A stretch of DNA of 64,000 bases from the NCBI RefSeq assembly GCF_009451885.1, contig NZ_WIAO01000022.1:1-64000 (forward strand). Reading direction: 5' to 3'. The notes beneath the pieces were generated by a model that saw nothing but the letters and a program-made list of their open reading frames with translations, ran no database searches and was not told where the DNA came from. Position 1 is the first letter of the stretch, and every line of letters begins with the position of its first letter. Origin of the DNA: Glycomyces albidus (GTDB lineage: Bacteria > Actinomycetota > Actinomycetes > Mycobacteriales > Micromonosporaceae). Positions 45,451-62,564 of the stretch are shown here, in pieces. The position numbers were made by a program, and so were the translations under genes.

Positions 45451-45710
45451 GTTATCCACAGGCGCGGAATCGCTCCTGTACAGGGGTTGCCTGATCTGTG
45501 ATCGTTAGTAGCAAAAACACCTTCCTCCTGGTGGTGGTTGGAGGAGGAGGGAGGTGGTGCCGGTTCTGGCAGGACTGGCGGCGAATGTGGGATACCCCGG
45601 GGGCCGCCCCCGAAGACCGCGCGGGAGTGCACTCCCGCGCGGCTCCTGCCAGAACACCTCGCGAGGAACAAGACGCGGGCGCGTCGGCGACCAGCCGACG
45701 CGCCCGCACC
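45451..45710 (+). repeat. Long inverted repeat, copy A (structured, non-coding)
   Basis: The sequence from 45451 to 45667 matches the reverse complement of copy B (62260-62522) with only two substitutions. A variable segment of about 10-12 nt follows, and then the same terminal hairpin. Features from left to right are a DnaA-box sequence TTATCCACA (45452-45460); a purine-rich GGAGGAGGAGGGAGG run; a 12-bp outer stem (45563-45574 with 45644-45655); a 26-nt perfect palindrome (45617-45642); and a perfect 14-bp hairpin (45675-45688 with 45694-45707). Frames across it are not credible genes. Confidence 0.9.
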
Positions 45711-45788
45711 AACAAACCGAGGCCACCGACCGGCCGGACCACGAAGCGCCGGCAGAACCGAGAGGACCGCCGACGCCCCGACAGCGCA

Positions 45789-47756
45789 TCAGTCGGGCCG
45801 AGGGCTCACATCCCGCATCACCGACCGAAGCAGCGGCCGCGACAGGGCCCCTGCGGCGATCACCGAAGCGGTCCCGACCGCCAGGGTCGCCGCCAGGATC
45901 AAAGCCCCGCTGACGTCGAAGCCCATGCCGCCGATCACCGGGGCGGTCAAGAGCATCCCGGTCAGCACCGACGCCCCGCCGAGGAACGCCAACGGCAGCA
46001 GGGTCTCCTGCCGCCGGGCCTGGTCGAGGACCCGCTGCGGGGTGCCGGCGAGGTGCAGGAGCCGGTACGTCTGGCGGCGGTCGAGCACCGAGCCGACCGC
46101 GCTGATCGCGGCCGAGACGGCCGCGGTCACGAAGACCACCGCGAGGACCACGGTCACCCCGGTGCGGACCGAGCCCACGAGGCGGTTCGACAGGATGCTC
46201 GAGTCGATCTCCCGCTCGGGCGGGTCGCCGGGGAGGAGCGCGGTCATGGTGCTGCGCACCGACTCGAGTTCCGCGCCCGAAGTGGTCGCCTCGATGACGG
46301 CCGCGCCCTCGTCCGCGGTGAGGAACCCGCTGCTGTCGACCACCGCGACTTCGGCCCTGCCGCCGAGTTCGGTGGACAGTGTCGCCGCGAGGGCCTCGGC
46401 GTCCGCTTCGGGCACGACCGCGGCGATGGTCTCAGTGGACTGGATGCTCGTGTCGGCCACGATCATCGGGAAGAGCGCGACCGAGCCGGCGACGAACCCC
46501 GCGATCGCGACGCCCGACACGGTGCGCCAGGCGGCCTTCGGGTCTTCGGCGAGGCGGCGGGCGGCGAGGAGCCGGGCAGGGCCCTTCGCGGTGCGCGCCA
46601 GGATCCGGCCGAGGCGCTGCACCGTCCAGGGACCGATGAGGTTCACCGCGGCGAGGGTCGCGGCGAAGAGCACGACGAGGATCGCGACCGCGATCATGCT
46701 GCCGCCGGCGAGCTGGGTCGCGATCAGGAACGCGACCGAGAGGCCCGCGAAGACGAGAGCGCGGATCGCTTTGAGGCCCTTGGGTTTGACTCGCCGGGCC
46801 ACACCCAGGGGGCTGATCACGACGCCGCGGAGACCGATGAGGGCCGAGGCGGCGACGAGGACCGGCACCGCGAGGGCGACCGCGAGCATCCAAGGGGCGC
46901 CGGCCCACAGGTCGGCGACGTACCAGCGCCCGCCGTCGATGGGGATGAGCGCGACCAGCGGGGTCGCGAGCATCCACGCGACGGTGCCGACCGCCGACCC
47001 GGCGGCCGCCGCGAGCACCGTCTCGATGAGCGTCAACCGCATCACCTGCCCGGGGGTCGCGCCGATGAGCCGCAGGGTCGCGAGCCGCTCGTCGCGGCGC
47101 GACACCGTGAGCCGGGCCGCCGCGGCGCCGAAGACCGCCGCAGGCACCGCCATGAGGATCGCCGCCAGGATCATGAGGATCATGTAGAAGCCGTAGACCG
47201 CGTCCGCCTGGCCCCCGTCGAAGCCGTCGATCTCGCGCGGCGAGACCGCGTCCGCGTTGAACCGCTCGGCGCTCAGCGCCGGGTCGTCCGCGGCGCGGCC
47301 CACGACCGCGACCATCTCGTTCGGGTGCGCGAGCGCCTCCTCGCCGAGCTCGCCGGCGACCTTCACATCGCCGTAGCGGGAGAGGAATTCGGACTCGGGC
47401 ACGCCCTCGAGCAGGTCGGCCGCGGCCGGTGACAGCCACACCTCACCGGGCGCGGGGAACGCGTCCATGCCGGGCGGCGCGGGCGCGCCGCCGTCGAGCG
47501 CCGCGAGGTCGATGCGGGTGATCGACTCCCCGCCGAGGTGGTCGACGGCCGTCGCGAGGACCGCCGTACCGCTGCCGTCGGCGGCGGGCGCGTCGCGCCA
47601 CGACGTCCGGTCGGCGCGGGTGTCGAACGCGAAGTTCCCGGCGACCGCGAACTGGAGCAGCAGCGTCGCGACCGCGACGGCGAGCGCGGTCAGACCGGTG
47701 CTGAGCAGGGCGCTGCGTCCGCCCAGCCGGGTCAGGCGCCAGGCGAGCTCGGTCAT
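45789..47756 (-). CDS. FtsX-like ABC transporter permease
   Basis: The 655-residue permease has an N-terminal TM, a large extracytoplasmic domain (about 45-185), an FtsX-type three-TM block (about 190-310, with TLRLIGATPGQVMRLTLIET), a middle pair of TMs, a second extracytoplasmic domain and a C-terminal three-TM block (with YRLLHLAGTPQRVLDQARRQE). This is a MacB-like exporter or mechanotransmission architecture. Its ATG overlaps the ATPase stop as ATGA. The gene ends next to inverted repeat copy A. Confidence 0.9.
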   Translation of the reverse strand: MTELAWRLTRLGGRSALLSTGLTALAVAVATLLLQFAVAGNFAFDTRADRTSWRDAPAADGSGTAVLATAVDHLGGESITRIDLAALDGGAPAPPGMDAFPAPGEVWLSPAAADLLEGVPESEFLSRYGDVKVAGELGEEALAHPNEMVAVVGRAADDPALSAERFNADAVSPREIDGFDGGQADAVYGFYMILMILAAILMAVPAAVFGAAAARLTVSRRDERLATLRLIGATPGQVMRLTLIETVLAAAAGSAVGTVAWMLATPLVALIPIDGGRWYVADLWAGAPWMLAVALAVPVLVAASALIGLRGVVISPLGVARRVKPKGLKAIRALVFAGLSVAFLIATQLAGGSMIAVAILVVLFAATLAAVNLIGPWTVQRLGRILARTAKGPARLLAARRLAEDPKAAWRTVSGVAIAGFVAGSVALFPMIVADTSIQSTETIAAVVPEADAEALAATLSTELGGRAEVAVVDSSGFLTADEGAAVIEATTSGAELESVRSTMTALLPGDPPEREIDSSILSNRLVGSVRTGVTVVLAVVFVTAAVSAAISAVGSVLDRRQTYRLLHLAGTPQRVLDQARRQETLLPLAFLGGASVLTGMLLTAPVIGGMGFDVSGALILAATLAVGTASVIAAGALSRPLLRSVMRDVSPRPD

Positions 47757-48556
47757 CGCCGCACCTCCGCGGCCGGCTCGGGACCGAACCGGCCGTCACC
47801 GGAGACCGCGGGACGCTGCCCGGCCGGTTGGCTCCCGGCGGGCGCGAACCCGTCGAAGCCGGCGCGCGGGGCGGCGGAGAGGCGGTCGTCGCCGCGCGGC
47901 ACGCGCCCGTCGCGCAGCTCGATCGTGCGCGTGCACCGGGCCGCGATGCGCGGGTCGTGCGTGACGACGACGAGCGCCGCATCGAGCGCGGCGACCGTGT
48001 CGAGCAGGACGCCCATCACCTGGTCGCCCGTGGCCTGGTCGAGCGCCCCGGTCGGCTCGTCCGCGAACACCACCGCCGGCGAGATGACCAGGGCCCGCGC
48101 CAGCGCGACCCGCTGGGCCTCACCGCCCGACAGCTCGCCGGGTCGCCGCCCTTCCTTGCCTTCGAGGCCGAGCCGCCGCAGCTGCGCGCGGGCCGGTTCG
48201 AGCGCGGCCCGCCGCGGGGTGCCGTCGAGCATGAGCGGCAGCGCCACGTTCTCCTCGGCGGGCAGCTCGGGCAGGAGCTGCCCGAACTGGAACAGGAACG
48301 CGAACCGGGTGCGCCGCAGGTGGCTGCGCGCCCGCTCGGAGAGGGTGTCGATGCGCTCGTCGAACAGGCGCACCTCCCCCGAGTCGGGGCGCATGATCCC
48401 GGCGAGGCAGTGCAGGAGCGTCGATTTGCCGGAGCCGCTGGGCCCGGTGACGGCGACCGATTCGCCCGGTGCGACGGCGAAGTCGACACCGTCGAGCGCG
48501 GGGGCGGTCCCGAAGTGCTTGACGAGGGCGCGGGCGCTGAGCATGGGGGGCCTCAT
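47753..48556 (-). CDS. ABC transporter ATP-binding protein (MacB/LolD type)
   Basis: The 267-residue ATPase has Walker A GPSGSGKST, Q-loop FLFQFGQLLPEL, signature LSGGEAQRVALARAL, Walker B VVFADEPTGALD and the switch VVVTHD. After about residue 215 there is a disordered proline/alanine-rich extension. The ATG at 48556 overlaps the stop of the 37-residue membrane protein gene as ATGA, with AAAGG upstream; an ATG at 48544 is an alternative. Confidence 0.93.
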   Translation of the reverse strand: MRPPMLSARALVKHFGTAPALDGVDFAVAPGESVAVTGPSGSGKSTLLHCLAGIMRPDSGEVRLFDERIDTLSERARSHLRRTRFAFLFQFGQLLPELPAEENVALPLMLDGTPRRAALEPARAQLRRLGLEGKEGRRPGELSGGEAQRVALARALVISPAVVFADEPTGALDQATGDQVMGVLLDTVAALDAALVVVTHDPRIAARCTRTIELRDGRVPRGDDRLSAAPRAGFDGFAPAGSQPAGQRPAVSGDGRFGPEPAAEVRR

Positions 48557-48666
48557 CGGCGTACCTTTCGGTGGTCGGGAAGGAAGGGCAGGGCCACGCC
48601 CGCAATGAGGAACACCGCCGTGAGCACCACGCCCAGGGCGGTGCCGATCTCCAAGAATCCGTTCAT
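48553..48666 (-). CDS. 37-aa single-TM small protein, first gene of ABC operon
   Basis: A 37-residue protein beginning MNGFLEIGT has one hydrophobic helix (about 7-29) and the basic end DHRKVRR. Its stop overlaps the ATPase start in an ATGA, the same coupling seen between the ATPase and permease genes, which strongly supports it as a real small gene. It may be an accessory subunit stabilising or regulating the transporter. No strong ribosome-binding site is visible before the ATG at 48666. Confidence 0.65.
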   Translation of the reverse strand: MNGFLEIGTALGVVLTAVFLIAGVALPFLPDHRKVRR

Positions 48667-48780
48667 GACGCCAGCTTCGCCCGCGCAGGCACTGTCCTGC
48701 TTCGGCTCGGCGACGGGTTCGGGCCGCCGCGGGTCGGCCGTTCGACCGAGGGCGCCCGAATCCGGGCTACCTTCGAGCTC

Positions 48781-49989
48781 ATGAACGCACCCAAGGCGGC
48801 GATGAGCGGCCGCTTCAACCGGCTCCTGATGCGCCTGCTCAAGTTCGGCCTGGTGTCGGTGCTCTTGGTGATCCTCCTCGCCGAGATGCTGTCGCACAAC
48901 AGCGGCGAGAAGCCCCCGATGTTCTCGTGGCTGGCCTGGGTGCAATGGGCGACTTCGATGCTCGCGATCGCCGTGTACGCCTGGTACCGGCCGGGCCGCA
49001 AGCGGTGGATCGCCGCGGTCGCGGTCGCGTCGCTGGTCGTGACCGGGATCGACGCGGTGTACGACCAGGTCGTGCGCGGGGTGGGCACGGCGGAGCTGCT
49101 GGCGATGGGGCTGCTGCTGCTGTTCGCGATCCGCCACTGGGACGCGGCGCCGGGCAGGTGGGTGGCGTTCGTGCTCGGCGCGGCGATCCTGCTGATCGGC
49201 GGCGTCAGGCTGTTCACATACGAGGGCTCGGACGTCGGCGGCACCGCGATGGTCGTGATGGCGATGCTCAGCGTCATCGGTTTCGGCGCCTACCTGCGGA
49301 GCATGGACAAGCTGCGCCGCGAGACGCAGGAGGAGGTCCGCCGGGCCGAGCGCCTCGAACTGGCCCGGGAGATGCACGACTTCGTGGCGCACCACGTGAC
49401 GGGCATGGTCGTGCTCGCGCAGGCGGGCCAGGTGACGGACACGGATCCGCGGAAGGCGTTCGCGGACATCGAGGAGGCGGGTCTGGCGGCGCTGGCGTCG
49501 ATGCGGCGGATGGTGCGGATGCTCCGCGCCGACGACACGGGCGGCGGGGTGAACCCGCTCGGGGACCTGTCGCAGATCGAGGACCTGGTGGACCGGTTCA
49601 GCCGGGAGGGGACGGACGCGACGTGCTTCATCTCGCCGGAGCTCGCCGGCGGCGCCGTGGCGCCGGAGATCGCGGCGACGGCGCACCGGGTGGTGCGGGA
49701 GGCGTTGACGAACGTGCGCAAGCACGCGCGCGGCGCGACCCGGGTGCGGGTGGTGGTCGCGGCGGCGAGCGGTCAGGGCCTGGAGGTGTCGGTGCGCGAC
49801 GACGGGAGGGCGCCGCGCGGCCGGTTCGGCCGCGAGTCGCTGGCCCAGTCGGGTGCGGGCCTGGGCCTGGTGGGCCTGCGCGAGCGGATCGAGGCGGTCG
49901 GGGGCCAGTTGCGGGCGCAGGAGCGCCCGGAGGGCGGCTGGGAGACCGCGGCGTGGCTGCCGCGGGAGGCGGCGCCGGTCGAGGTCTGA
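48781..49989 (+). CDS. NarL-type (HisKA_3) sensor histidine kinase, orphan
   Basis: The 402-residue kinase has five to six N-terminal TMs (about 18-175), a short coiled linker, the HisKA_3 phospho-acceptor AREMHDFVAHHVTGMVV, and a HATPase domain with VREALTNVRKHA and SGAGLGLVGLRERIEAVGG. Such kinases normally have a LuxR-type response regulator next door, but none follows. It is divergent from the ABC exporter operon and may regulate it. TACCTT (48768-48773) is 7 nt before the ATG at 48781, suggesting a leaderless start. Confidence 0.88.
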   Translation: MNAPKAAMSGRFNRLLMRLLKFGLVSVLLVILLAEMLSHNSGEKPPMFSWLAWVQWATSMLAIAVYAWYRPGRKRWIAAVAVASLVVTGIDAVYDQVVRGVGTAELLAMGLLLLFAIRHWDAAPGRWVAFVLGAAILLIGGVRLFTYEGSDVGGTAMVVMAMLSVIGFGAYLRSMDKLRRETQEEVRRAERLELAREMHDFVAHHVTGMVVLAQAGQVTDTDPRKAFADIEEAGLAALASMRRMVRMLRADDTGGGVNPLGDLSQIEDLVDRFSREGTDATCFISPELAGGAVAPEIAATAHRVVREALTNVRKHARGATRVRVVVAAASGQGLEVSVRDDGRAPRGRFGRESLAQSGAGLGLVGLRERIEAVGGQLRAQERPEGGWETAAWLPREAAPVEV

Positions 49990-50034
49990 GCGGCGGCGCG
50001 GTGAGCGCGACGCGGTGAGCGCGACGCGCGAGCA

Positions 50035-50070
50035 GAGCGGCCCTCGTCCGGATCCGGACGAGGGCCGCTC
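50035..50070. terminator. Perfect 36-nt palindromic terminator
   Basis: The sequence is fully self-complementary around GGATCC (centre 50052/50053). It lies between the kinase gene and the converging tRNA-Tyr and can terminate both. Confidence 0.8.
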
Positions 50071-50075
50071 GCTAC

Positions 50076-50160
50076 TGGTGGCAGGTGCAGGATTCGAACC
50101 TGCGAAGTCGATGACGGCTGATTTACAGTCAGCTCCCTTTGGCCACTTGGGTAACCTGCC
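50076..50160 (-). tRNA. tRNA-Tyr (anticodon GTA), CCA encoded
   Basis: Read on the minus strand, acceptor arms GGCAGGT and ACCTGCC pair, the anticodon loop is CTGTAAA (GTA), a long class II variable arm follows, and the T-arm is GCAGG-TTCGAAT-CCTGC. The discriminator A and encoded CCA end at 50076. Confidence 0.96.
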
Positions 50161-50426
50161 GTGGCGTGTAGCGAGAGCAAGGATAGCGTCCCCTCCCAGG
50201 GGGTCCGCAAGCGGGTTCTCCCCCGTTGAGACCGCGTTCACTGCCGCGCCCGCCGCCCCGGCGGCGGCCGTGGTCCCGGGCGCGGTCGAGCGCGTCGGCG
50301 GGTCCGGACTAAGCTTGGCGGTCGCGCCCCTTGCATTGTGCTCCGTCACAGTGCCCCTCGACCGCAGCGCCCTCGACGCCGCGCGCCGACGCTGAGCCGC
50401 AACCGACACTGGAAGGACCGGACGCC

Positions 50427-50918
50427 ATGGCCGACGCCTCGTTCGACATCGTCTCCGAGATCGATCTCGCGGAGCTCGACAACGCGATCAACCAGGCCCA
50501 GCGGGAGCTGGGGACCAGGTTCGACTTCCGCGGCACCGGCGCGAAGGTGGACCGCAGCGGCGACGAGGCGGCCGTGATCTCCGCCGAGACTGAGGACCGC
50601 GCGAAGGCGGCCCTGGAGGTCCTCAAGGAGAAGCTCATCAAGCGCGGGATCTCCTTGAAGGCCCTCGACGCGTCCGAGCCGCGCCAGTCCGGCAAGGAGA
50701 CGAAGATCGACGTCGCGTTCAAGCAGGGGATCTCCACCGAGGACGCGAAGAAGATCGGGAAGATCATCCGCGACGAGGGCCCCAAGGGCGTCAAGCCGCA
50801 GGTGCAGGGCGACAAGCTGCGGGTCACCGGCAAGAAGCGCGACGACCTGCAGGAGGTCATCGCGCTCCTCAAGGGCAAGGACCTCGACGTCGCCCTCCAG
50901 TTCACGAACTACCGCTAG
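50427..50918 (+). CDS. YajQ family cyclic-di-GMP-binding protein
   Basis: The 163-residue protein has the YajQ double ferredoxin-like fold: [20 protein letters not shown] at the N terminus, TRFDFRGTG, the [20 protein letters not shown] segment and the C terminus ALQFTNYR. YajQ proteins bind nucleotides, and c-di-GMP in some species, and may act as transcription co-regulators. That fits the GGDEF protein elsewhere in this window, but no direct link is shown. GGAAGGA precedes the ATG by 9 nt. Confidence 0.93.
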
Positions 50919-51107
50919 GTGGACGTCTCGGACCAGGTCGCGCTCGCCCTGTTCGTCGTGGGCGGGCTCCTGGTCGCGCTCATGGTCGTCGTCACGCAGC
51001 GCTCGTACAAGAAGGACGAGCGCTCCGAGTACTGGGTCGTGTACCCGACCGCGAAGGGCGAGAAGGCGGTCGCCCCCCGACCGCCCGAAGCGCTCGAGGA
51101 GGACTAG
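50919..51107 (+). CDS. Small single-TM protein coupled to yajQ, 62 aa
   Basis: The GTG at 50919 directly follows the YajQ stop TAG. The protein has one TM (about 7-26, ALALFVVGGLLVALMVVV) and a charged cytoplasmic tail with RSYKKDERSEYWVVYP. Translation probably depends on ribosomes finishing yajQ. The function is unknown. Confidence 0.55.
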   Translation: MDVSDQVALALFVVGGLLVALMVVVTQRSYKKDERSEYWVVYPTAKGEKAVAPRPPEALEED

Positions 51108-51121
51108 GGCGCCCCGGGCCG

Positions 51122-53338
51122 CTAGGCGTCGAGCCGGTGCGTGAGCCCGGTGTGGCGCTTCCCGGTCCCGGCGGTGCGGACGGCGACGCCGAGCGCCTGC
51201 TTCGAGCCGACGAGGACCACGAGCCGCTTCGCGCGCGTGATCGCCGTGTACACGAGGTTGCGCTGGAGCATCGTCCACGCGCTGGTGGTCACGGGGATGA
51301 CGACGGCGGGGTACTCGGAGCCCTGCGAGCGGTGGACGGTGACGGCGTACGCGTGCTGGAGCTCGTCGAGTTCGGCGAACTCGTACTCGACGTCCTCGTC
51401 CTCGTCGGTGCGGACCGTCACGGTCTGGGCGACCGCGTCGATCCCGTGGACGATGCCGCCGGTGCCGTTGAACACCCCGGCCTTCCCCTTCTGGTAGTCG
51501 TTGCGGATCTGCACGACCTTGTCGCCGACGCGGAAGACGCGGCCGCCGTGGCGGCGCTCGGGCAGGCCGTCGCGGGCGGGCGTGAGCGCCTCCTGGAGCC
51601 GCGCGTTGAGGTTCCCGGCGCCGGGCCCGCCCCGGTGCATGGGGGTGAGGACCTGGACGTCGCGCACCGGGTGCAGGCCGAAGCGGGCGGGGATGCGGCG
51701 GGCGACGATCTCCACGACCCGGTCGGCGACGAGGTCGTTGTCGTCGCACGCGAACCAGAAGAAGTCCTGGTAGCCCTCGAGGTCGGGGAATCGGCCCTGG
51801 TTGACCTTGTGGGCGTTGGCGACCACGCCCGACTCGGCGGCCTGCCGGAAGATCCGGGTGAGCCGGACGCGGGGGACGGCCTCGGCGGCGAGGAGGTCGC
51901 GGAGGACCTCGCCGGCGCCGACGCTGGGGAGCTGGTCGACGTCGCCGACGAGGAGCAGGTGGGCGCCGGGCGGGACGGCTTTGACGAGCTTGTTCGCGAG
52001 GATCGTGTCGAGCATCGACGACTCGTCGACGACGAGGAGGTCGACGTCGAGCGGGTTGTCGCGGTCGTAGGCGGCGTCGCCGCCGGGACGCAGTTCGAGC
52101 ATCCGGTGGAGGGTGCGCGCCTCGAACCCGGTGAGCTCGGCGAGGCGCTTCGCGGCGCGACCGGTGGGGGCCGCGAGCATGACCTTGGCGCCCTTGGCCC
52201 TCGCGAGCGCCACGATGGACGAGACGGTGAAGCTCTTGCCGCAGCCGGGCCCGCCGGTGAGGACCGCGACCCGTTCGGTGAGCGCGAGCCGCACGGCCTC
52301 GGCCTGCTCGGGCGCGAGCTCGGCGTCGCTGCGGCGCCGCAGCCACGCGAACGCCTTGTCCCAGTCGACGCCGCGGAAGGCCGCGAGGCGGTCCTCGTCG
52401 GCGCGCAGGAGGGCGAGGAGCCCGGCGGCGAGGCCGCGCTCGGCGTGGAAGAACGGCGCGAGGTACCGGGCGGGCACGGTGGAGCCGCCGACCGGGACGT
52501 CGTCGGCGATGACGCGCTCGCCCGCTTCGGCGAGCTCCGCGAGCGCCCTGGCGACGGGCCCGGCCGGGAGGCCGAGGAGCTCGACGGTGTCGGCGACGAG
52601 GTTCGGGGCGGGCAGGAAGCAGTGCCCGGAGTCGGAGGCCTGCGACAGCGTGTACTGGAGGGCCGCTTTGATCCGCTCGGGCGAGTCCTCGGGGATGCCG
52701 ACGGCGCGGGCGATCGCGTCGGCGGTCTTGAACCCGATGCCCCACACCTCGTTCGCGAGCCGGTACGGCTCGTTCTTGACCACGCCGATCGACGCGTCCC
52801 CGTACTGCTTGTAGACGCGGACCGCGAGCGAGGTGGAGACGTCGACGGACTGGAGGAACACCATGACCTCCTTGATCGCGCGCTGCTCCTCCCAGGCGGC
52901 CGCGATCGCCTTGGTGCGCTTGGGGCCGAGCCCGGGCACCTCGGCGAGCCGGGAGGCGTCGGCGTCGATCACGTCGAGGGTGTCGGTGCCGAAGTGCGCG
53001 ACGATCTTCGCGGCGGTCTTGGGCCCGATCCCCTTGACCAGGCCGGAGCCGAGGTACCGCTCGATGCCCTGGACGGTGGCGGGCAGGACGGTCCGGTACG
53101 ACCAGACCTCGAACTGGCGGCCGTACTTGGGGTGGCTCGACCAGCGCCCGGTCAGCGACAGCGACTCCCCGACCTGCGCGCCCAGGAGCGGCCCGACGAC
53201 CGTGACCAGGTCCTGGCCGCCGCGGGCGGGGCTGGCGCGGGCGATCGTGTACCCGGTCTCCTCGTTCGCGTACGTGACGCGTTCGAGCACCGCCTCCAGG
53301 ACGGTGCCCGCCGCCGCGGGGCCTCGGTTGTCCGCCAT
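51122..53338 (-). CDS. recD2: RecD2-type ATP-dependent DNA helicase
   Basis: The 738-residue SF1B helicase has an OB-like N terminus (about 10-75), tandem helix-hairpin-helix segments (VKGIGPKTAAKIVAHFG; LAEVPGLGPKRTKAI), a helical insert, then the RecA-like motor: Walker A LTGGPGCGKSF, motif II VVDESSMLD, motif III LLVGDVDQLPSVGAG, motif IV LTRIFRQA, and the C-terminal UvrD-like part with VTVHRSQGSEYPAVV and NLVYTAITRAKRL. RecD2 proteins act outside RecBCD in repair. TACCGT (53345-53350) is 6 nt before the ATG at 53338. Confidence 0.94.
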   Translation of the reverse strand: MADNRGPAAAGTVLEAVLERVTYANEETGYTIARASPARGGQDLVTVVGPLLGAQVGESLSLTGRWSSHPKYGRQFEVWSYRTVLPATVQGIERYLGSGLVKGIGPKTAAKIVAHFGTDTLDVIDADASRLAEVPGLGPKRTKAIAAAWEEQRAIKEVMVFLQSVDVSTSLAVRVYKQYGDASIGVVKNEPYRLANEVWGIGFKTADAIARAVGIPEDSPERIKAALQYTLSQASDSGHCFLPAPNLVADTVELLGLPAGPVARALAELAEAGERVIADDVPVGGSTVPARYLAPFFHAERGLAAGLLALLRADEDRLAAFRGVDWDKAFAWLRRRSDAELAPEQAEAVRLALTERVAVLTGGPGCGKSFTVSSIVALARAKGAKVMLAAPTGRAAKRLAELTGFEARTLHRMLELRPGGDAAYDRDNPLDVDLLVVDESSMLDTILANKLVKAVPPGAHLLLVGDVDQLPSVGAGEVLRDLLAAEAVPRVRLTRIFRQAAESGVVANAHKVNQGRFPDLEGYQDFFWFACDDNDLVADRVVEIVARRIPARFGLHPVRDVQVLTPMHRGGPGAGNLNARLQEALTPARDGLPERRHGGRVFRVGDKVVQIRNDYQKGKAGVFNGTGGIVHGIDAVAQTVTVRTDEDEDVEYEFAELDELQHAYAVTVHRSQGSEYPAVVIPVTTSAWTMLQRNLVYTAITRAKRLVVLVGSKQALGVAVRTAGTGKRHTGLTHRLDA

Positions 53339-53471
53339 GCGGCAACGGTAGACGGCGGGTCCGTCAACCGCCCTTTCGAACACCGGGTCGGGTATGCGTC
53401 GTTCGTGGCCGTTCATCGCGGGTGGAGGCGCATCGGCGTGAATGTCGGAGCCCGCCGGTACGGTGTGGACC

Positions 53472-54149: not shown

Positions 54150-54154
54150 ACGGG

Positions 54155-54187
54155 CGAGGCCCCGGTCCGAGCGGGACCGGGGCCTCG
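54155..54187. terminator. Bidirectional hairpin terminator
   Basis: CGAGGCCCCGGTCC (54155-54168) pairs perfectly with GGACCGGGGCCTCG (54174-54187) between converging genes. Confidence 0.8.
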
Positions 54188-54214
54188 ATGTGACTTGGGG
54201 CGGCGGAGTGCCGC

Positions 54215-55382: not shown

Positions 55383-55880
55383 ATGGGTTTTAGTGTCGGC
55401 GAGACCGTTGTCTACCCCCACCACGGGGCCGCACTCGTTGAAGCTGTAGAGACTCGCGTCGTCGGCGGTATCGAACAGGAATACCTCGTACTGCGCGTCG
55501 AACAGGGTGACCTCACGGTCAAGGTTCCAGCCAAGAACGTCGAGCTCGTCGGCGTCCGGGAAGTCGTCGGCGCGGAGGGCCTCAGCGAGGTCTTCGACGT
55601 GCTGCGCGCCCCGCACACCGAGGAACCCACCAACTGGTCCCGGCGGTACAAGGCGAATGTCGAGAAGCTCGCGTCCGGTTCTCCGCTGAAAATAGCAGAG
55701 GTCGTCCGCGACCTGTGGCGCCGCGACCGCGAACGGGGCCTCTCGGCCGGGGAGAAGCGCATGCTCTCCAAGGCCCGCGAGATCCTCACCGGCGAGATCG
55801 CCCTCGCCGAGGACTGCGTGAAGGACGAGGCCGACAACATCCTCGACAAGGTCCTGCTCTCGGAGGCCCCGGTCAAGTAG
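55383..55880 (+). CDS. carD: CarD-family RNA polymerase-binding transcription factor
   Basis: CarD binds the RNA polymerase beta subunit and stabilises open complexes. The 165-residue protein has the RNAP-interaction domain ([21 protein letters not shown] to about residue 60, with [16 protein letters not shown]) and the C-terminal helical DNA-binding domain, with [24 protein letters not shown] (the promoter-contacting Trp) and [16 protein letters not shown]. Full length. It is followed 24 bp later by ispF. Confidence 0.96.
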
Positions 55881-55904
55881 CCGGCTCCGCCAGCGACCGC
55901 CAGC

Positions 55905-56387
55905 GTGCGTCCCAATACGCCCTACGTCATCGGGCACGGCACCGACGTGCACCGCTTCGACACCAGCCGGCCCTGTAGCCTCGCCTGCCTCGAATGGCCC
56001 GGCGAGGCGGGGCTGGCCGGGCACTCCGACGGCGACGCGGCCGCCCACGCGGCCTGCGACGCCCTGCTCTCCGCCGCCGGACTCGGCGACCTCGGCTCCA
56101 ACTACGGCACCGACCGGCCCGAATGGGCCGGCGCCTCCGGGGCCGCGCTCCTGGCCGAGACCGCCCGCCGCGTCCGCGACGCCGGCTGGGACATCGGCAA
56201 CGTCTCCGTGCAGGTCATCGGCAACCGCCCCAAGATCGGGCCCCGCCGCGCCGAGGCCGAGGCGGCCATGGCGGCCGTGATCGGCGCCCCCGTCAGGCTC
56301 TCCGCCACCACCACCGACGGCCTGGGCTTCACCGGACGCGGCGAAGGACTCGCCGCGACCGCGGTAGCGTTGCTGTACCAGCCCTGA
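55905..56387 (+). CDS. ispF: 2-C-methyl-D-erythritol 2,4-cyclodiphosphate synthase
   Basis: IspF closes the cyclodiphosphate in the MEP isoprenoid pathway. The 160-residue protein has the zinc site GHGTDVHRF (Asp14, His16) and [17 protein letters not shown] (His48), then the C-terminal [15 protein letters not shown] motif. ispD usually lies between carD and ispF in actinobacteria but is absent here. The GTG at 55905 has only weak ribosome-binding sequence. Confidence 0.93.
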
Positions 56388-56408
56388 GACCTGTCCGGGA
56401 GTAGACCC

Positions 56409-57230
56409 ATGGACGCTGACCCCAAGCGCACGGTAGCCGAACTCCTCCAGAGCGCCGAACTGCTCTACGACCTCGGCCAAGTGCCCGACGCGCGCGCCGA
56501 GGCCGACGCCGCGCTGCGCCTCGACCCCCTGGACCCGGACGCGAACGCCATGGCCGCGGCCTGCGCGCTCGCCGACAACGACCCCGACGAGGCCCTCGTC
56601 TACGCCGGCGCCGCCCTCGCCCGGACCCCCGGCCACCGCCGCGCCATGATCACCCGCGGGTACGCGCTCGCCGACGCCGGCCGCCGCGACGAGGCCATGC
56701 AGGCCGCCGCGAGCCTCCTGGAGCTCGACCGGACGTCCTGGCTCCACCACGTCCACTACGCGCTCATCACCCGCCGCGCCGGCGCCGCGCAGCCCGCGCT
56801 CGACGCCGCCTGGAACGCCGTGAACCTCGCGCCCGACCAGCCGCGCACGCACCGGGCGCTCGCCGCCATCGCCGAGGACCTCGGCATGGACGACCTCGCG
56901 AAGCGCTCGCGGCGGGCCGCCGCCGACCTCGACCCGGGCGGCGCCGCGGCCTTCGCCGAGGCGCTGCCGCCCGAGGCGCGCCGCGTCCACCGCCGGTGGG
57001 TCGACGCCGACCGCGACGACCCGCGCTGGCGCGAGAAGATCGGCAGCGGCGGCCTGTTCGGCGGCGCGCTCGGCCGGTCGATCCTCCTCGGCCTCGCCGT
57101 GGTCTTCGCCGTCCCCGCGCTCCTGGGCACCGGCATGGACGGCGGCGCCCGCCTGTTCTTCGCGGCCGTCGCCGCCGCCGCGTGGGTGGGATGGTTCACA
57201 GTTCTCCGCCGGCACCGCAACCCGGAGTGA
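56409..57230 (+). CDS. TPR-repeat membrane protein
   Basis: The 273-residue protein has four to five TPR-like helix pairs (about 8-190, for example LLYDLGQVPDARAEADAALRL and AMITRGYALADAGRRDEAMQ). Two C-terminal TMs follow (about 222-242 and 245-265), ending in LRRHRNPE. The repeats should lie in the cytoplasm as a scaffold. GGGAG lies 7 nt before the ATG at 56409; it follows ispF by 21 bp and may be co-transcribed with carD-ispF. Confidence 0.8.
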   Translation: MDADPKRTVAELLQSAELLYDLGQVPDARAEADAALRLDPLDPDANAMAAACALADNDPDEALVYAGAALARTPGHRRAMITRGYALADAGRRDEAMQAAASLLELDRTSWLHHVHYALITRRAGAAQPALDAAWNAVNLAPDQPRTHRALAAIAEDLGMDDLAKRSRRAAADLDPGGAAAFAEALPPEARRVHRRWVDADRDDPRWREKIGSGGLFGGALGRSILLGLAVVFAVPALLGTGMDGGARLFFAAVAAAAWVGWFTVLRRHRNPE

Positions 57231-57285
57231 CCTCACGCGTGCGGACTCGTTAATCCTTCACCACCGACCTGATGGAGGACGACGA

Positions 57286-58380
57286 GTGACCACGTGCTGG
57301 GTTCCCGGGGCCGACGCGAGCCCCTACAACATTCACAATCTCCCGTTCGGGGTCTTCTCGACCGCCGACCAGCCGCTGCCGCGCATCGGCATACGCATCG
57401 GCGACCAGATCCTCGACATGCACAAGGCGGTCCTCGCCGGGGACTGCCAGACCTGCGGCGCCTGCACCGCCCTGCGCGACCCGGCCCTCAACCGGCTGCT
57501 GTCGCTCGGCAAGGCCGTCTGGAAGGCGGTCCGCACCCAGGCCCAGCAGGCCCTGAGCGAACCGAGCCTCCAGGACGCCGCGTCCGAGTGGCTCACCCCG
57601 GTCGCCGACGCGATCATGCACGCCCCGCTCATGGTCACCGACTACGTCGACTTCACCATGCGCGCGCCCGGCTCCGACCGGGTCTACCCGCGCGCCTCCA
57701 ACGGCCGGCCCTCGACGCTCATCCCCTCCGGGATGGACCTCGTGCGGCCCGCCGGACACCGCCCCGGCGACGACGGCCGCCCCGTGTTCGGCCCCACCCG
57801 CGCCCTCGACATCGAGGCCGAGGTCGGGTTCATCGTCGGCAGCCAATCCGACCTGGGCCGCCCCGTCTCGCCGGACGCGTTCGAGGACTACGTGTTCGGC
57901 GCGGTCCTCCTCAACGACTGGACCGCCCGCGACTTCCAGGAGCTGGAGACCGACGGCCTCGGGCCGGTCGCCTCCAAGTCGTTCGCGACCTCCATGAGCG
58001 CCTGGGTCACGCCGATCGAGGCGCTCAGCGCCGCCCGCACCGTCGCGCCCCCGCCGCCCGCCGACATGGCCTCCTATCTGAAGGAGTCCGACCGGTACGG
58101 CTTCGACCTGCACCTGAACATCGAGGTGAACGGGGTGGCCGTCGCCGGCGCCGACTTCGCCGAGGCGTGCTGGACGCCCGCCCAGCAGCTCGCCCAGCTG
58201 ACGGCCGGCGGCGCGGTGGTCCGGCCGGGCCTCATGTACGGCTCCGGCGAGGCGGTCACCGGCCGGTGGGGCCTGCAGGACGGCGACGCCGTCACGGTCA
58301 CCGCCACCGCGCCCGGACCACGAGGCACCACCATCGCCCTCGGCGAGGTCGCGACCCGCATCCTCCCGTCCATCACCTGA
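57286..58380 (+). CDS. Fumarylacetoacetase-like protein lacking the catalytic His
   Basis: The 364-residue protein has the two-part FAH layout: a small N-terminal domain starting with NIHNLPFGVFS and the C-terminal hydrolase fold with FGPTRALDIEAEVGF (metal-binding Glu177, Glu179), LLNDWTARDFQ (Asp211) and GPVASKSFATSMSAWVTP. The segment that carries the metal Asp (DYVDF) is followed by MRAPGSDRVYP instead of the usual SREHATNVG, so the general-base His is missing. A CQTCGAC triplet of cysteines (54, 57, 60) is unusual. GGAG lies 8 nt before the GTG. Confidence 0.8.
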   Translation: MTTCWVPGADASPYNIHNLPFGVFSTADQPLPRIGIRIGDQILDMHKAVLAGDCQTCGACTALRDPALNRLLSLGKAVWKAVRTQAQQALSEPSLQDAASEWLTPVADAIMHAPLMVTDYVDFTMRAPGSDRVYPRASNGRPSTLIPSGMDLVRPAGHRPGDDGRPVFGPTRALDIEAEVGFIVGSQSDLGRPVSPDAFEDYVFGAVLLNDWTARDFQELETDGLGPVASKSFATSMSAWVTPIEALSAARTVAPPPPADMASYLKESDRYGFDLHLNIEVNGVAVAGADFAEACWTPAQQLAQLTAGGAVVRPGLMYGSGEAVTGRWGLQDGDAVTVTATAPGPRGTTIALGEVATRILPSIT

Positions 58381-58393
58381 CGGGCACGGCGAA

Positions 58394-58425
58394 CACCGGT
58401 CGGCCCGCTGCGGGGCCGACCGGTG
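58394..58425. terminator. Bidirectional hairpin terminator
   Basis: CACCGGTCGGCCC (58394-58406) pairs with GGGCCGACCGGTG (58413-58425) between converging genes. Confidence 0.8.
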
Positions 58426-58447
58426 GGAACCGAACAGGATGAAGCGC

Positions 58448-58942
58448 CTAGACCGGCACGGTCTTCACGCTCGGGGCGAGGCGAGCCACGAGCTCGACCT
58501 CGACCGGGGCGTCCAGCGGCAGCACGCTCACGCCGACCGCGCTGCGCGCGTGCGTCCCGGCCTCGCCGAAGACCTCGCCCAGCAGCTCGGAGGCGCCGTT
58601 GACGACCTTCGGCTGGCCGGTGAACTCCGGCGCCGACGCCACGAAGCCCACGACCTTCACGATCTGGACCACCCGGTCGAGCGGGGCGACCGAGGCGACC
58701 GCGGCGAGGGCGTTCAGCGCGCAGATCCGCGCCAGCTCGTACGCCCGGTCTGGGTCGACCTCCGCGCCGACCTTCCCGGTCGCGGCGAGCGCGCCGTCGA
58801 CCATCGGAAGCTGGCCCGAGGTGTACACGTACTCCCCCGACACGACGGCCGGGTGGTAGGCCGCCAGCGGCGGCACGACCGCCGGCAGCTCCAGTCCGAG
58901 GCGCGCGAGCGCTTCGGCAGCGGTCTCCGCGGAACCGGCCAC
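58448..58942 (-). CDS. RidA (YjgF/YER057c/UK114) family protein
   Basis: The 164-residue protein has the RidA trimer fold: VVSGEYVYTSGQLPMVDG near the N terminus, then ARICALNALAAVASVAPLDRVVQIVKVVGFV and HARSAVGVSVLPLDAPVEVELVA, longer than minimal RidA. RidA enzymes hydrolyse reactive imines; the usual substrate-binding Arg of the IPGL-type subgroup is not evident at the C terminus, so it may be a divergent subgroup. AGGAG precedes the GTG at 58942; the gap to the upstream DUF4177 stop is 2 bp. Confidence 0.87.
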   Translation of the reverse strand: MAGSAETAAEALARLGLELPAVVPPLAAYHPAVVSGEYVYTSGQLPMVDGALAATGKVGAEVDPDRAYELARICALNALAAVASVAPLDRVVQIVKVVGFVASAPEFTGQPKVVNGASELLGEVFGEAGTHARSAVGVSVLPLDAPVEVELVARLAPSVKTVPV

Positions 58943-58944
58943 GG

Positions 58945-59103
58945 CTACTGCTCCTTCTTTCGCTTGAAGTACGCCACCAGCTGCTCCGAGTTCTGGCCGG
59001 GCAGGACCGTGACCAGCTCCCACCCGTCGTCACCGAACGTATCGAGGATCATCTTGGTGTTGTGGATCAGCAGCGGCGCCGTGAGGTACTCCCATTTCTC
59101 CAT
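58945..59103 (-). CDS. DUF4177 small protein, 52 aa
   Basis: The sequence begins MEKWEYLTAPLL and contains the DUF4177 hallmark FGDDGWELVTVLPG, ending in VAYFKRKKEQ. It is co-transcribed with the RidA gene. TACTGT (59110-59115) stands 6 nt before the ATG at 59103, a leaderless arrangement. The function is unknown. Confidence 0.85.
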   Translation of the reverse strand: MEKWEYLTAPLLIHNTKMILDTFGDDGWELVTVLPGQNSEQLVAYFKRKKEQ

Positions 59104-59215
59104 GCGCCCACAGTACGGCGTCTTGATTCGCCCGCGGCGCACCGCTACGCTCAGAGTGCGTCGCCTCCCCGAAGAGTCCCGCGGCCCTGCCGCACCAGTG
59201 AACCAGGGAGTCCCC

Positions 59216-59806
59216 ATGTCGTCAGACACTGCGGCGCAGTCGTCGGACGCCGCCGAGCCCGTGCGCACCATCGAACCCGCTGCCCAGGTCCCGCGCCAGG
59301 AGCCCGCCCCGAGGCGGCCCGAACCGCTCGGCCTCCGCCCGTCCGACTTCGACCGCCCCGGCCGCCACGAGGACCAGACAGGTCTGCTGTGGACTGTCGT
59401 CACGGCGGTCGCGGCGGTCCTGTTCTGCGCTGCGCTCGTCTTCGGCGCGACCCGCCTCTTCATCGCCGACACCGCCGGCACCGTCACCGACACGCCCGAG
59501 CGGACCGTGTCCGCGTTCCTCGGGGCGCTCCTGGGCGAACGGGACGCCGAGGCCGCCGCGGCCTGGCTGTGCACCGACAAGGCCGACCGCGACCTGAGCG
59601 AAGCGGTCGCGGCGATGTCCGCCGCCGACGGCGACCGCGGCTTCGAATGGACCGACGTGACCGAGACCAACCGGTCCGTGGGTGCGGCCACCGTCACCGC
59701 AGAGATCGGCATCGACGGCGGCGCGTCCCCGGCGACCTGGGAATTCTCGCTCGTCGCCGAGGAAGGCGACCCGCAATGGCTCATCTGCGGTATCACCGCG
59801 GGGTGA
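59216..59806 (+). CDS. Single-TM protein with extracytoplasmic NTF2-like domain
   Basis: The 196-residue protein has a disordered proline-rich cytoplasmic N terminus (about 1-58), one TM (about 60-84) and an extracytoplasmic domain with ERTVSAFLGALLGERDAEAAAAWLC, then strands ending in WEFSLVAEEGDPQWLICGI, as in Rv-type DUF4878/NTF2-like anchored proteins. Two Cys may form a disulfide. AGGGAG lies 5 nt before the ATG; a TACGCT box stands near 59147. Confidence 0.7.
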   Translation: MSSDTAAQSSDAAEPVRTIEPAAQVPRQEPAPRRPEPLGLRPSDFDRPGRHEDQTGLLWTVVTAVAAVLFCAALVFGATRLFIADTAGTVTDTPERTVSAFLGALLGERDAEAAAAWLCTDKADRDLSEAVAAMSAADGDRGFEWTDVTETNRSVGAATVTAEIGIDGGASPATWEFSLVAEEGDPQWLICGITAG

Positions 59807-59820
59807 CTAGACTCCGTTGA

Positions 59821-60780
59821 ATGACTGCCTCTGCGCGCCCGGTGCCGCGCCTGCACGTCGTCACCGGGAAGGGCGGCACGGGAAAGACCTCGGTCGCCGC
59901 CGCGCTCGCCCTGGCGCTGGCAGGTCCCGGCAGACGTGTCCTGCTGGTGGAAGTCGAAGGACGCCAAGGGATCGCGTCGCTGTTCGGGACCGCGCCCCTC
60001 GGTTACGAGGAGCGTCATCTCGCGTCCGGCGCGGGCGGCGGGGAGGTCTTCGGGCAGTCGGTCGACGCCGACGAGGCGCTCCTGGACTACCTGGCGATGT
60101 TCTACCGGCTCGGCTCGGCCGGGCGGGTGCTGCAGAAGTTCGGGGCGATCGACTTCGCGACCACGATCGCGCCCGGACTGCGGGACATCCTGCTCACCGG
60201 GAAGCTCAAGGAGGCGGTGTCGCGGACCGAGTCGGGCCGGATGGCGTACGACGCGGTCGTGCTCGACGCGCCGCCGACGGGCCGGGTGGTGAAGTTCCTG
60301 AACGTCACGGTCGAGTCGGGCCGGCTCGCGAAGACGGGCCCGATCGGGAAGCACTCGCGGTCGGTGGCCCGGCTGCTGCATTCGTCGCAGACGGCGGTGC
60401 ATCTGGTGACGACGCCGGCGGCGATGCCGGTGCAGGAGACGATCGACGCGCACCGCGACCTGATGGCCGCGGACCTGCCCGTGGGCCGGATCATCATGAA
60501 CAAGGTGGCCGGTGCCAAGACCGGTGAGGTGACGTCGGAGGAACTCGAGGCCGGCCTCGCGAGGGCGGGCATCGCGCCGGACGAGTCCCTGGTGCGCGGG
60601 CTGGCCGCCGAGTACGAGTCGGCCCGGACCGAGATCCAGGCGGTCGACGCGTACCGGGACCGGCTCGAGCGGCTCGGCCGCCCGGTCGAGGAGCTGCCGC
60701 TCCTGCCCGAGGGGGTCGACCTGTCGGGGCTGTATCAGCTCGCCCGCGAGCTCAGGCCTGGAGGCCCGTATGAGGACTGA
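59821..60780 (+). CDS. ArsA/GET3-type ATPase, first of pair
   Basis: The 319-residue ATPase has the deviant Walker A VVTGKGGTGKTS near the N terminus, switch and Walker B-type VVLDAPPTGRVVKFLN, and a C-terminal helical part. It corresponds by position to M. tuberculosis Rv3679 of the Rv3679-Rv3680 pair. The arsenite-binding cysteines of true ArsA are absent, so protein sorting or another role is more likely. TAGACT (59808-59813) is 7 nt before the ATG at 59821, suggesting a leaderless mRNA. Confidence 0.9.
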   Translation: MTASARPVPRLHVVTGKGGTGKTSVAAALALALAGPGRRVLLVEVEGRQGIASLFGTAPLGYEERHLASGAGGGEVFGQSVDADEALLDYLAMFYRLGSAGRVLQKFGAIDFATTIAPGLRDILLTGKLKEAVSRTESGRMAYDAVVLDAPPTGRVVKFLNVTVESGRLAKTGPIGKHSRSVARLLHSSQTAVHLVTTPAAMPVQETIDAHRDLMAADLPVGRIIMNKVAGAKTGEVTSEELEAGLARAGIAPDESLVRGLAAEYESARTEIQAVDAYRDRLERLGRPVEELPLLPEGVDLSGLYQLARELRPGGPYED

Positions 60781-61894
60781 ACTCGACGTCGACGCGCTGC
60801 TCGGCAACGACGGCAAGCACGTCATCGCCTGCTGCGGCTCGGGCGGCGTGGGCAAGACCACGACCGCGGCGGCCCTGGCGCTGCGCGCGGCCGAGGTGCA
60901 CGGGCGCCGCACGGTGGTCCTCACGATCGACCCGGCCCGGCGGCTGGCGCAGTCGCTCGGCATGGAGGCCCTCGACAACACGCCCCGGCCGGTCGCCGGG
61001 GTGCGCGACGGGTCCCTCGACGCGATGATGCTCGACATGAAGCGCACCTTCGACGAGGTCGTGGCCTCGCACACCACGGAGGAGCGCGCGGCGGAGATCT
61101 TCGCGAACCCGTTCTACCAGGCGGTCTCCTCGACCTTCTCGGGCACGCAGGAGTACATGGCGATGGAGAAGCTGGGCCAGCTCCGCGCGACCGGCCGGTG
61201 GGACCTCATCGTCCTCGACACCCCGCCGTCGCGCTCGGCCCTGGACTTCCTGGACGCCCCCGCGAGACTGGCCCGGTTCCTCGACGGCCGCGTCATCCGC
61301 CTGCTCTCGGCCTCCACCCCGGGCGCCCGCCGTTCGATGCTGTCCCTCATGGGCGCCAGCGCGGCCGTGTTCACCCGGGTCTTCAACAAGGTCCTCGGCG
61401 GGCACCTGCTCACGGATGTCGCCGAATTCACTGCGAGTCTCGAGGACACGTTCGGCGGTTTCCGCAAGCGCGCGGAGGCAACCTTCCGGGCCCTCCAGGA
61501 CGACCAGACGTCGTTCCTGGTCATCGCCGCTCCCGAGCCGGCCGCGGTCGGCGAGGCCGTGTACTTCACCCGACGGCTCACGGAGGAGCGGATGCCGCTC
61601 GACGGCATGATCTTGAACCGCCTGACCCCGCTCGCCGCGGGTCTCTCTGCCGAACGCGCCCTGGGCGCGGCCGCGCAGCTCGAAGAGGCCGATGCGGACG
61701 ACCCGGTCGCTGCGGTGCTGCGCACCCATGCCGACCTGGCCCGCCGCCGCGCCGCCGAGGAGCGGGTGGCCGCCCGCTATGAGGCCGCATGCCCGGAGGT
61801 GCCGCAGCGGTGGCTTCCGTCGCTCGGGGTCGAGGTCGTCGATCTGGAGGACCTCCGCCGCTTCGGCGCCGCGGCAGCGGGCGTCGACCGCTGA
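60770..61894 (+). CDS. ArsA/GET3-type ATPase, second of pair
   Basis: The 374-residue partner overlaps the first by 11 bp. It has Walker A CCGSGGVGKTT, TIDPARRLAQSLG, VVASHTTEERAAEIFANPFYQ, the STFSGTQEYMAMEKL switch II region and LIVLDTPPSRSALDFLDAP. It corresponds to Rv3680. The two proteins likely form a heterodimeric ATPase, as inferred for the mycobacterial pair. No membrane partner gene is seen here. Confidence 0.9.
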   Translation: MRTELDVDALLGNDGKHVIACCGSGGVGKTTTAAALALRAAEVHGRRTVVLTIDPARRLAQSLGMEALDNTPRPVAGVRDGSLDAMMLDMKRTFDEVVASHTTEERAAEIFANPFYQAVSSTFSGTQEYMAMEKLGQLRATGRWDLIVLDTPPSRSALDFLDAPARLARFLDGRVIRLLSASTPGARRSMLSLMGASAAVFTRVFNKVLGGHLLTDVAEFTASLEDTFGGFRKRAEATFRALQDDQTSFLVIAAPEPAAVGEAVYFTRRLTEERMPLDGMILNRLTPLAAGLSAERALGAAAQLEEADADDPVAAVLRTHADLARRRAAEERVAARYEAACPEVPQRWLPSLGVEVVDLEDLRRFGAAAAGVDR

Positions 61895-62259
61895 ACACCC
61901 GGACCCGCTTGACCGCCTCCCGGCTGTTGCCGGTCTCGCCCGTTGCAGCCGAGGGCGATCGCTGACCCTGGGTAATCGGACGAGAGCACGGTCAGTAGTC
62001 GCTTGGCTCGGTATCGGTCGGCGAAGGCTGCTGGATTGAGCGATCCTTATCCGCGAACCGCTTGAATTTGGCGATCCCTGGTTTTTTCGGGAGCTCGGCT
62101 CTCAAGTTCTCTCGCGCACTTGTTCTATTTCGCGCGGGCAATCGGTTCTGTCGTTCGGTCGGATCTATTGTCGTTCTCTCGTCGTGCCGGTTGACGACTC
62201 CTTGGCCGTTGTTCATTTGGCGCCGCTGCGGTTGTCGCTTTCGGCGTCCTTGAATTTTT
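61895..62259. other. Gene-free, less GC-rich stretch before repeat copy B
   Basis: No gene is seen between the ArsA2 stop and the repeat. The stretch is AT-richer than the surrounding genes, has short T-runs near 62085 and 62256, and shows no terminator of note. Frames across it have no recognisable domains. Confidence 0.6.
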
Positions 62260-62522
62260 GGTGCGGGCGCGTCGGCTGGTCGCCGGCGCGCCCGCACGCA
62301 CGTTCTCCTCGCGAGGTGTTCTGGCAGGAGCCGCGCGGGAGTGCACTCCCGCGCGGTCTTCGGGGGCGGCCCCCGGGGTATCCCACATTCGCCGCCAGTC
62401 CTGCCAGAACCGGCACCACCTCCCTCCTCCTCCAACCACCACCAGGAGGAAGGTGTTTTTGCTACTAACGATCACAGATCAGGCAACCCGTGTACAGGAG
62501 CGATTCCACGCCTGTGGATAAC
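62260..62522 (-). repeat. Long inverted repeat, copy B
   Basis: This is the reverse complement of copy A (45451-45710), with two substitutions over the first 217 nt and a short variable stretch before the terminal hairpin. In copy B that hairpin has one mismatch. The DnaA-box sequence TTATCCACA is at 62513-62521 on the minus strand. The two copies point toward each other across about 16.5 kb. Confidence 0.9.
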
Positions 62523-62564
62523 TTCGCGAGTATCGCTTATTTTGCCTGGTGGTGAGCGTCAGAG

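Follow-up and report, generated by a model that had tools for sequence, protein, structure and literature searches.

A 64,000-nucleotide stretch of Glycomyces albidus DNA, referred to here as the window, contains two near-identical copies of a non-coding element in opposite orientations. Copy A (45451-45710, + strand) lies between genes for a siderophore-interacting protein and an FtsX-like permease, and copy B (62260-62522, − strand) lies between a BagB-like ATPase gene and a whiB-family gene. The alignment of positions 45449-45716 (+) with 62524-62255 (−) spans 271 columns with 95.9% identity (E 1.2e-122), which is far beyond chance. The copies differ by two substitutions across the first 217 nt, followed by a short variable stretch and a common terminal hairpin. 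A sequence-only reading of the window had described this long inverted repeat, and its account of the match, the orientation, the substitutions, the variable stretch, and the hairpin is accurate. It also stated that the repeat contains no transposase gene, in agreement with the length of the copies, ~260 bp, and the lack of coding genes called inside them by a simple gene caller. The promoter-like elements, the conserved RNA fold, and the self-complementary loops of the copies were missed. It is well supported by computation that the inverted repeat consists of two members of a family of structured RNA genes, which is present in several copies per genome and was found here only in Glycomyces, a soil bacterium. 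The elements of the two copies are as follows.

45451..45460, +: DnaA-box-like element GTTATCCACA of copy A (three in the window, none in 100 shuffles)
45477-45482, +: putative −35 element TGTACA of copy A, assigned by eye
45497-45499, +: TGT of the putative extended −10 element of copy A, assigned by eye
45500-45505, +: putative −10 element GATCGT of copy A, assigned by eye
near 45511-45513, +: inferred start site of copy A
45518..45556, +: 5' hairpin of copy A, predicted fold
45565..45652, +: conserved RNA core of copy A with outer stem, apical hairpin, and GC-rich hairpin (model R1, 105.3 bits; covariation)
45595..45602, +: apical-loop palindrome CCCCGGGG of copy A
45617..45642, +: core hairpin of copy A, 26 nt, perfectly palindromic
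45657..45666, +: linker palindrome CCTCGCGAGG of copy A
45675..45707, +: terminal GC-rich hairpin of copy A, terminator-like, without a T-run
62513..62522, −: DnaA-box-like element of copy B
62491-62496, −: putative −35 element of copy B, by eye
62468-62473, −: putative −10 element of copy B, by eye
62321..62408, −: conserved RNA core of copy B (model R1, 105.3 bits)
62371..62378, −: apical-loop palindrome CCCCGGGG of copy B
62307..62316, −: linker palindrome CCTCGCGAGG of copy B
62261..62297, −: terminal hairpin of copy B
62564..62573, +: second, inverted box upstream of copy B

The window is contig C15 of genome G000 (5.76 Mb, 88 contigs; G numbers denote genomes of the comparison set and L numbers extracted loci). 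The sequence-only reading had treated A and B as a lone pair and proposed counting copies by BLASTN. The search of the same genome with copy A found further copies in contigs C78 (98% identity), C43 (80%), and C72 (74%). Matches are present in 17 of 21 other Glycomyces genomes, with four genomes lacking them. In total, 19 of 61 genomes match, counting G000 and, for each of two families, a single weak match in a genus other than Glycomyces. A model of the conserved core (R1) detects the family in 19 of 22 Glycomyces genomes, and the covariance model built from all types (R2) detects 138 copies, distributed over 19 of the 22 with four to 14 copies in each; 14 are in G000, which makes A and B members of a dispersed family. 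Searches of more than 40 genomes used stricter filters, at which weak matches are lost. Under these filters R1 detects the family in 14 of 150 genomes of the taxonomic family, all of them Glycomyces (one of 44 genera), and R2 in 11 of 397 genomes of the order (one of 85 genera), with none in the 84 other genera sampled. A pattern derived from the core matches 30 stretches among 84,980 species genomes, all in Glycomyces; records of G000 itself were perhaps excluded. The copies can be divided into types, named I-IV in this analysis. In G000, type I comprises A, B, and the copies in C78, C43, and C72; type II those in C7, C26, C36, C8 (45.0k), C56, and C13 (50.3k); type III those in C8 (17.5k) and C13 (21.0k); and type IV that in C38. 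Viral contigs contain no exact match to the type I or type II patterns, and copy A has no blastn match in phage and plasmid collections, which speaks against a phage or plasmid origin. No report of the RNA was found in the open-licence literature. In some draft genomes, runs of poly-G/C or N stand in place of the terminal hairpins (L131, L133, L035, L020, L012), and contigs break inside copies (ends of G007 C2, C13, and C14, and of G006 C32), so the copy counts there are lower bounds.

Folding of 30 aligned copies gives 42 base pairs, 21 of which exhibit double changes. In the alignment of the core, containing 32 sequences, 97.8% of 925 cells are paired, and double changes occur in 17 of 29 pairs, compared to 8.0 ± 1.4 in shuffled alignments. 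The covariation score of 0.304 compares with 0.129 after shuffling and at most 0.078 for slid structures. In the all-type alignment, which was fitted to the covariance model, 94.4% of cells are paired, 18 of 29 pairs have double changes, and the score is 0.341 compared to 0.146 for shuffled data. The compensatory changes in the proposed stems exceed the controls, which is the mark of a structured noncoding RNA. Read on the strand that begins with the box, the stems contain 31 G-U or U-G cells and seven A-C or C-A cells, and this asymmetry marks the box-first strand as the RNA. The fold of copy A from position 45514 has a z-score of −7.3 relative to shuffled sequences. The opposite strand of the whole element reaches −6.6, which is no surprise for palindromic stems. 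A GGG/CCC inner helix is seen in type I and was rejected as a general feature, since its middle pair is unpaired in 22 of 37 rows.

The sequence-only reading did not recognize the repeat as a known element, and comparison with Rfam 15 likewise yields no family match. Only two tRNAs in the whole window score above the gathering threshold, and the best match of the element at a permissive threshold has 18.2 bits, compared to a gathering score of 150. Sixteen loci of other types match only an unrelated cobalamin riboswitch, and five short loci contain nothing relevant; the scans of the window, the element, and the other types thus rule out a known Rfam family. The riboswitch (RF00174, 90 bits) is at positions 1755-1964 of L123, near a type II copy. 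A likeness of AGAGGAAAGTCCGGGC in the copy at L048 3053-3148 (G009 C7, 119k) to the conserved P4 strand of RNase P RNA was considered and is probably due to chance.

In 127 of the 138 copies, the apical loop, defined as the stretch between the strands of the apical helix, contains a perfect palindrome of 8 nt or longer. Counted over distinct loops, such palindromes occur in 73 of 82, whereas 2.8 are expected from shuffling. Ten different apical palindromes of at least 8 nt are present: TTCGCGAA, CCCCGGGG, TCCCGGGA, CCGCGCGG, TCCGCGGA, TCCATGGA, GATCGATC, TCTGCAGA, TTCCGGAA, and CCGCGCGCGG. They are positioned 0-2 nt from the 3' strand of the helix, mostly behind GGGA-like purines. When the best of three registers is taken, the two central neighbours are complementary in all 82 distinct loops (CG in 39, GC in 37, AT in six), whereas the 5' part of these loops, as a control, yields none of 82. 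Two letters that directly follow each other are unable to pair inside a single strand, and the complementarity of the central neighbours argues for pairing between molecules. Of 120 distinct linkers before the terminal hairpin, 92 contain a palindrome of 8 nt or longer, compared to 11.6 expected; one of these arises artificially from a run of N, and for a few rows a different hairpin was called as the terminal one. In the internal controls, palindromes continue through the loop in 18 of 78 GC-rich hairpins of the core and in 14 of 109 terminal hairpins. Self-pairing of isolated loops has computed energies of −9.9 to −18.1 kcal/mol, whereas cross-pairs among the four types of G000 reach −1.6 to −6.9 kcal/mol, also computed for isolated loops. 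At least two palindromes are present in 18 of 19 genomes. The loops strongly suggest self-pairing of the RNAs and argue for its being type-specific. The self-complementarity is kept through changes of sequence, as in a homo-oligomeric RNA, which suggests that the RNAs work in pairs.

The region upstream of the RNA resembles a promoter. In 55 of 59 copies, the distance from the first base of the box to the beginning of an A-tract is 60-63 nt, and the four exceptions are all from G009. Inspection by eye of the sequence between the box and the A-tract reveals a hexamer resembling TTGNCA at offset 26 and, ~17-18 nt further, an extended −10 element of the form TGTnAnnnT. The box pattern GTTATCCACA occurs 32 times in the G000 genome, whereas the reversed pattern does not occur. 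Sorted by hand, the sites comprise 12 boxes of RNA copies, six second boxes beside RNA copies, two sites upstream of dnaA, one upstream of dnaB, four upstream of other protein genes, five in an apparently repetitive coding stretch of C41, and two elsewhere. In the remaining two of the 14 RNA copies, the box deviates from this pattern. The sequence TTATCCACA is located upstream and downstream of dnaA and upstream of dnaB, so that the box is identical to those at dnaA and at the presumed origin, where further boxes follow dnaA. The inverted second box upstream of copy B recurs at the same distance in the other B-site rows of the promoter table, as exact or one-letter variants. In many type II copies, the box of the RNA itself is preceded by a second one with a promoter-like stretch, and an ATG is present at +58 to +62 (for example, L123 2693-2840, L125, L126, L127, L134, L135, L248, L256, and L278). 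A conserved small peptide encoded in this tandem upstream promoter was considered and rejected, as the frames, read by eye, differ among the copies.

The genes that mark the two sites in the window are listed below.

44374..45174, −: siderophore-interacting protein gene, divergent from copy A (Pfam PF04954, PF08021)
45789..47756, −: FtsX-like permease gene outside the RNA, convergent with copy A (Pfam PF02687; synteny)
60770..61894, +: BagB-like ATPase gene, convergent with copy B (NCBIfam NF053621, 495 bits, just below the cut-off of 521)
62659..62997, −: whiB-family gene upstream of copy B (Pfam PF02467)

Site A, beside the permease gene, is occupied in five of the 19 genomes in which the locus was read. 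Site B, beside BagB, is occupied in 11 of 22, with one additional G007 copy cut by a contig end, and a third site, C, is occupied in 12 genomes. All five occupied A sites are flanked by the genes for the FtsX-like permease and the siderophore-interacting protein, and all 11 occupied B sites with both flanks assembled by BagB and whiB. An assembly duplication, which the sequence-only reading had named as a possible undoing of its claim, is unlikely, since assemblies of other species also contain copies at A and B, with the same neighbouring genes. That reading had also pointed out that recombination between the copies would invert the block between them. The identical flanks do not support a role mainly as a substrate for inversion: no inverted junction was seen at the five A and 11 B sites, as far as assemblies can show without long reads, and a rare inversion inside a population may occur. 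At site B of G019 (L212), two boxes persist after BagB and the RNA body is missing, beside an N run, probably as a result of loss. An iron-box-like motif, TTAGGG-AACCTAA, precedes the siderophore-interacting protein gene in the window, upstream of copy A, and in L191, L195, and L196, where site A contains no RNA. Elsewhere in the window, positions 40175-43690 contain tandem related LytR-CpsA-Psr genes; two that were tested match PF03816, and neighbours are 75% identical as DNA.

Copies within one genome are partly homogenized. Twenty-six type I copies at four sites were compared, after three poor or truncated copies had been dropped. Eight of 20 within-genome pairs are at least 90% identical (mean 81.7), whereas the best of 86 same-site pairs between genomes reaches 88.1% (mean 75.9). 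In the tree, copies from different sites of the same genome form clades: A, B, and D of G000 (100/99), A and D of G010 (100/99), and C and D of G008 (100/98). Some copies look like mosaics. In G013, the copy in C14 has an upstream flank in common with A and a 3' end in common with B; in G000, the C78 copy is B-like at its 5' end and A-like at its 3' end. The part upstream that B and C78 share is also found at several B and D sites of other species, and is thus weaker evidence for conversion. The computation shows partial concerted evolution within genomes, and the mosaics together with the clades by site and by genome may be read as partial gene conversion. The near-identity of A and B would follow from this homogenization by recombination. 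The suggestion of the sequence-only reading that the similarity implies recent duplication, gene conversion, or selection is borne out to this extent.

We consider it likely that the repeat belongs to a Glycomyces RNA gene family with a box-bearing promoter, a ~195-nt fold, loop-to-loop self-pairing, and partial conversion. Each copy would be transcribed from its own promoter, with the DnaA-box-like element upstream, into a predicted RNA of ~195 nt. The RNA would fold into a 5' hairpin, a core in which an outer stem encloses two hairpins, and, at its end, a GC-rich hairpin. Self-complementary sequences would be exposed both in the apical loop, where they measure 8 nt, and in the linker, and two molecules of the same type may pair loop to loop as homodimers or chains. 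Several types that differ in their palindromes coexist in one genome, and most would be expected to pair preferentially with their own kind. Gene conversion would partly homogenize the copies of a genome. The family, its fold, the covariation, the palindromes, the synteny, and the concerted evolution are computed results, whereas we infer transcription, promoter use, and dimerization. Several observations weigh against this interpretation. Concerted evolution is partial: 12 of the 20 within-genome pairs are less than 83% identical, and the tree groups five copies from site C together by site (97/99). Three of the 22 Glycomyces genomes have no copy detectable with R2. The promoter hexamers were placed without a promoter scan, and the terminal hairpins lack a T-run. 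Ten copies contain only a 6-nt apical palindrome, and the copy at site A of G007 has none of 4 nt or longer. Because the copies are related, the palindrome counts are not independent, and the shuffle expectations overstate their independence. Finally, CCCCGGGG and UCCCGGGA, which share genomes, would cross-pair at −14.5 kcal/mol, so self-sorting is not strict.

It is also conceivable, albeit unlikely, that the copies are miniature mobile elements resembling miniature inverted-repeat transposable elements (MITEs) or repetitive extragenic palindromes (REPs), in which a box-to-hairpin unit is copied by an enzyme acting in trans and the hairpins serve as ends. In near-identical pairs, the homology mostly extends sharply from within 9 nt of the box to shortly past the terminal hairpin, with unrelated flanks, as a mobile unit would. 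The copy number varies between four and 14 in genomes possessing the family, and 41 of the 64 copies with called neighbours are between convergent genes; of the others, 13 are in opposite/opposite, six in same/same, and one in opposite/same settings, and three lack one neighbour (simple GC-based gene caller). However, the sites A, B, and C have long been shared among species, and some pairs remain alike for 54-173 nt ahead of the box. The ends do not look like inverted repeats: the element starts with GTTATCCACA and ends with an unrelated hairpin. No target duplication was seen by eye, the empty sites being too diverged, and the covarying stems with wobble pairs on one strand fit an RNA.

A function at the level of DNA, with the palindromes serving as sites for dimeric proteins or recombination and the RNA being incidental, is very unlikely. 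Each copy contains several perfect DNA palindromes, and most begin with the DnaA-box-like element. Nevertheless, a protein site would keep its sequence, whereas here the symmetry is kept and the sequence changes among the ten palindromes, 8-mers or longer; the one-strand wobble asymmetry and the conserved promoter-like spacing also speak against it. Least probable of all is that the element acts as a terminator in both directions, or as a barrier, where genes converge, with conversion maintaining the similarity of the copies. This reading agrees with the frequent convergent setting, the strong hairpins, and the position of the terminal hairpin on the sense strand, but it does not account for the constant geometry of box and promoter, the palindromic loops that covary, or the opposite/opposite and same/same settings.

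Returning to the RNA gene family, its function can only be guessed: the common box suggests joint regulation with DNA uptake or replication initiation. Four other genes of G000 have the box in front. The first encodes ComEA helix-hairpin-helix and SLBB domains, with the ATG 60 nt after the box start, and is followed by a ComEC-like gene; it matches the comE subfamily with 109 bits, below the cut-off, and the ComEA repeat region above the cut-off. The second encodes Ssd (above the cut-off), with the ATG at 97 and a −35-like hexamer at 26, and is followed by a putative TadA-like ATPase gene. The third encodes an M23 peptidase (ATG at 62), and the fourth has a weak match to the MTES_1575 nuclease (ATG at 61). 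The box-bearing loci at the comEA-comEC and Tad-type pilus operons are L234 1931-2764 (G000 C31), L235 1632-2889 (G000 C54), and L313 13097-13337 (G009 C26). The ssd operon of G009, whose proteins are 60% and 77% identical, retains the box and the −35-like hexamer at the same offset, and another G009 gene, without a Pfam match, has a box 61 nt before its ATG. The ssd promoter is thus present in G000 and G009, whereas the comEA-comEC box was found in G000 only and lacks good −35 and −10 elements; the anchor region of G013, where a second comEA promoter was sought by synteny, contains no comEA match. In Micrococcus luteus, tad genes are reported to be required for transformation (PMC4322843). 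The link to DNA uptake is a lead, and since the box is equally a DnaA box, a link to replication is as likely. It is possible, though doubtful, that each cell contains several self-sorting, homodimerizing RNA types with evolving palindromic loops and conversion within type, switched on together with comEA-comEC and the Tad pilus through the DnaA-box promoter element.

The upstream regulation of competence in M. luteus is described as unidentified in PMC12849477, and the RNA family may offer a handle on competence control in Actinomycetota. According to section 8 of PMC12286853, natural RNA multimers have rarely been observed, and their relevance outside viruses has not been demonstrated. The 138 copies with ten interchangeable palindromes constitute a natural mutational series in which intermolecular pairing is directly testable. 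The family is also an example of small bacterial RNA genes that evolve partly in concert while occupying syntenic sites.

REP elements and the bacterial interspersed mosaic elements (BIMEs) they form, as well as MITEs, are dispersed, intergenic, hairpin-rich repeats, as are the Glycomyces copies. The latter differ in their conserved promoter-like architecture, covarying fold, and long-lived syntenic sites. Ms1/6S RNA is a structured actinobacterial RNA in the size range of ~195 nt. The Glycomyces RNA differs from it in its multiple copies and its predicted fold without a long, bulged single hairpin; kinship between the two is a lead from the literature, and the study in PMC9130861 found neither Ms1 nor its synteny in Glycomycetales. 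In the dimerization initiation site of HIV-1, as presented in PMC7357161, an apical-loop palindrome also pairs with the same loop of a second RNA; in contrast, the Glycomyces RNA is cellular and multicopy, its palindrome is longer, and its dimer is predicted. OLE, GOLLD, and ROOL are likewise structured bacterial noncoding RNAs with symmetric loops that covary as palindromes (PMC12286853), and section 8 of that article argues from complementary adjacent loop letters of OLE and GOLLD for intermolecular pairing. The symmetric element described there is a tetranucleotide with three sequences in OLE and a dinucleotide in GOLLD, whereas the ~195-nt Glycomyces RNA has an 8-nt palindrome in ten sequences. 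It differs from all three by its several copies and types per genome and the lack of an Rfam match, and its structure and assembly are predicted.

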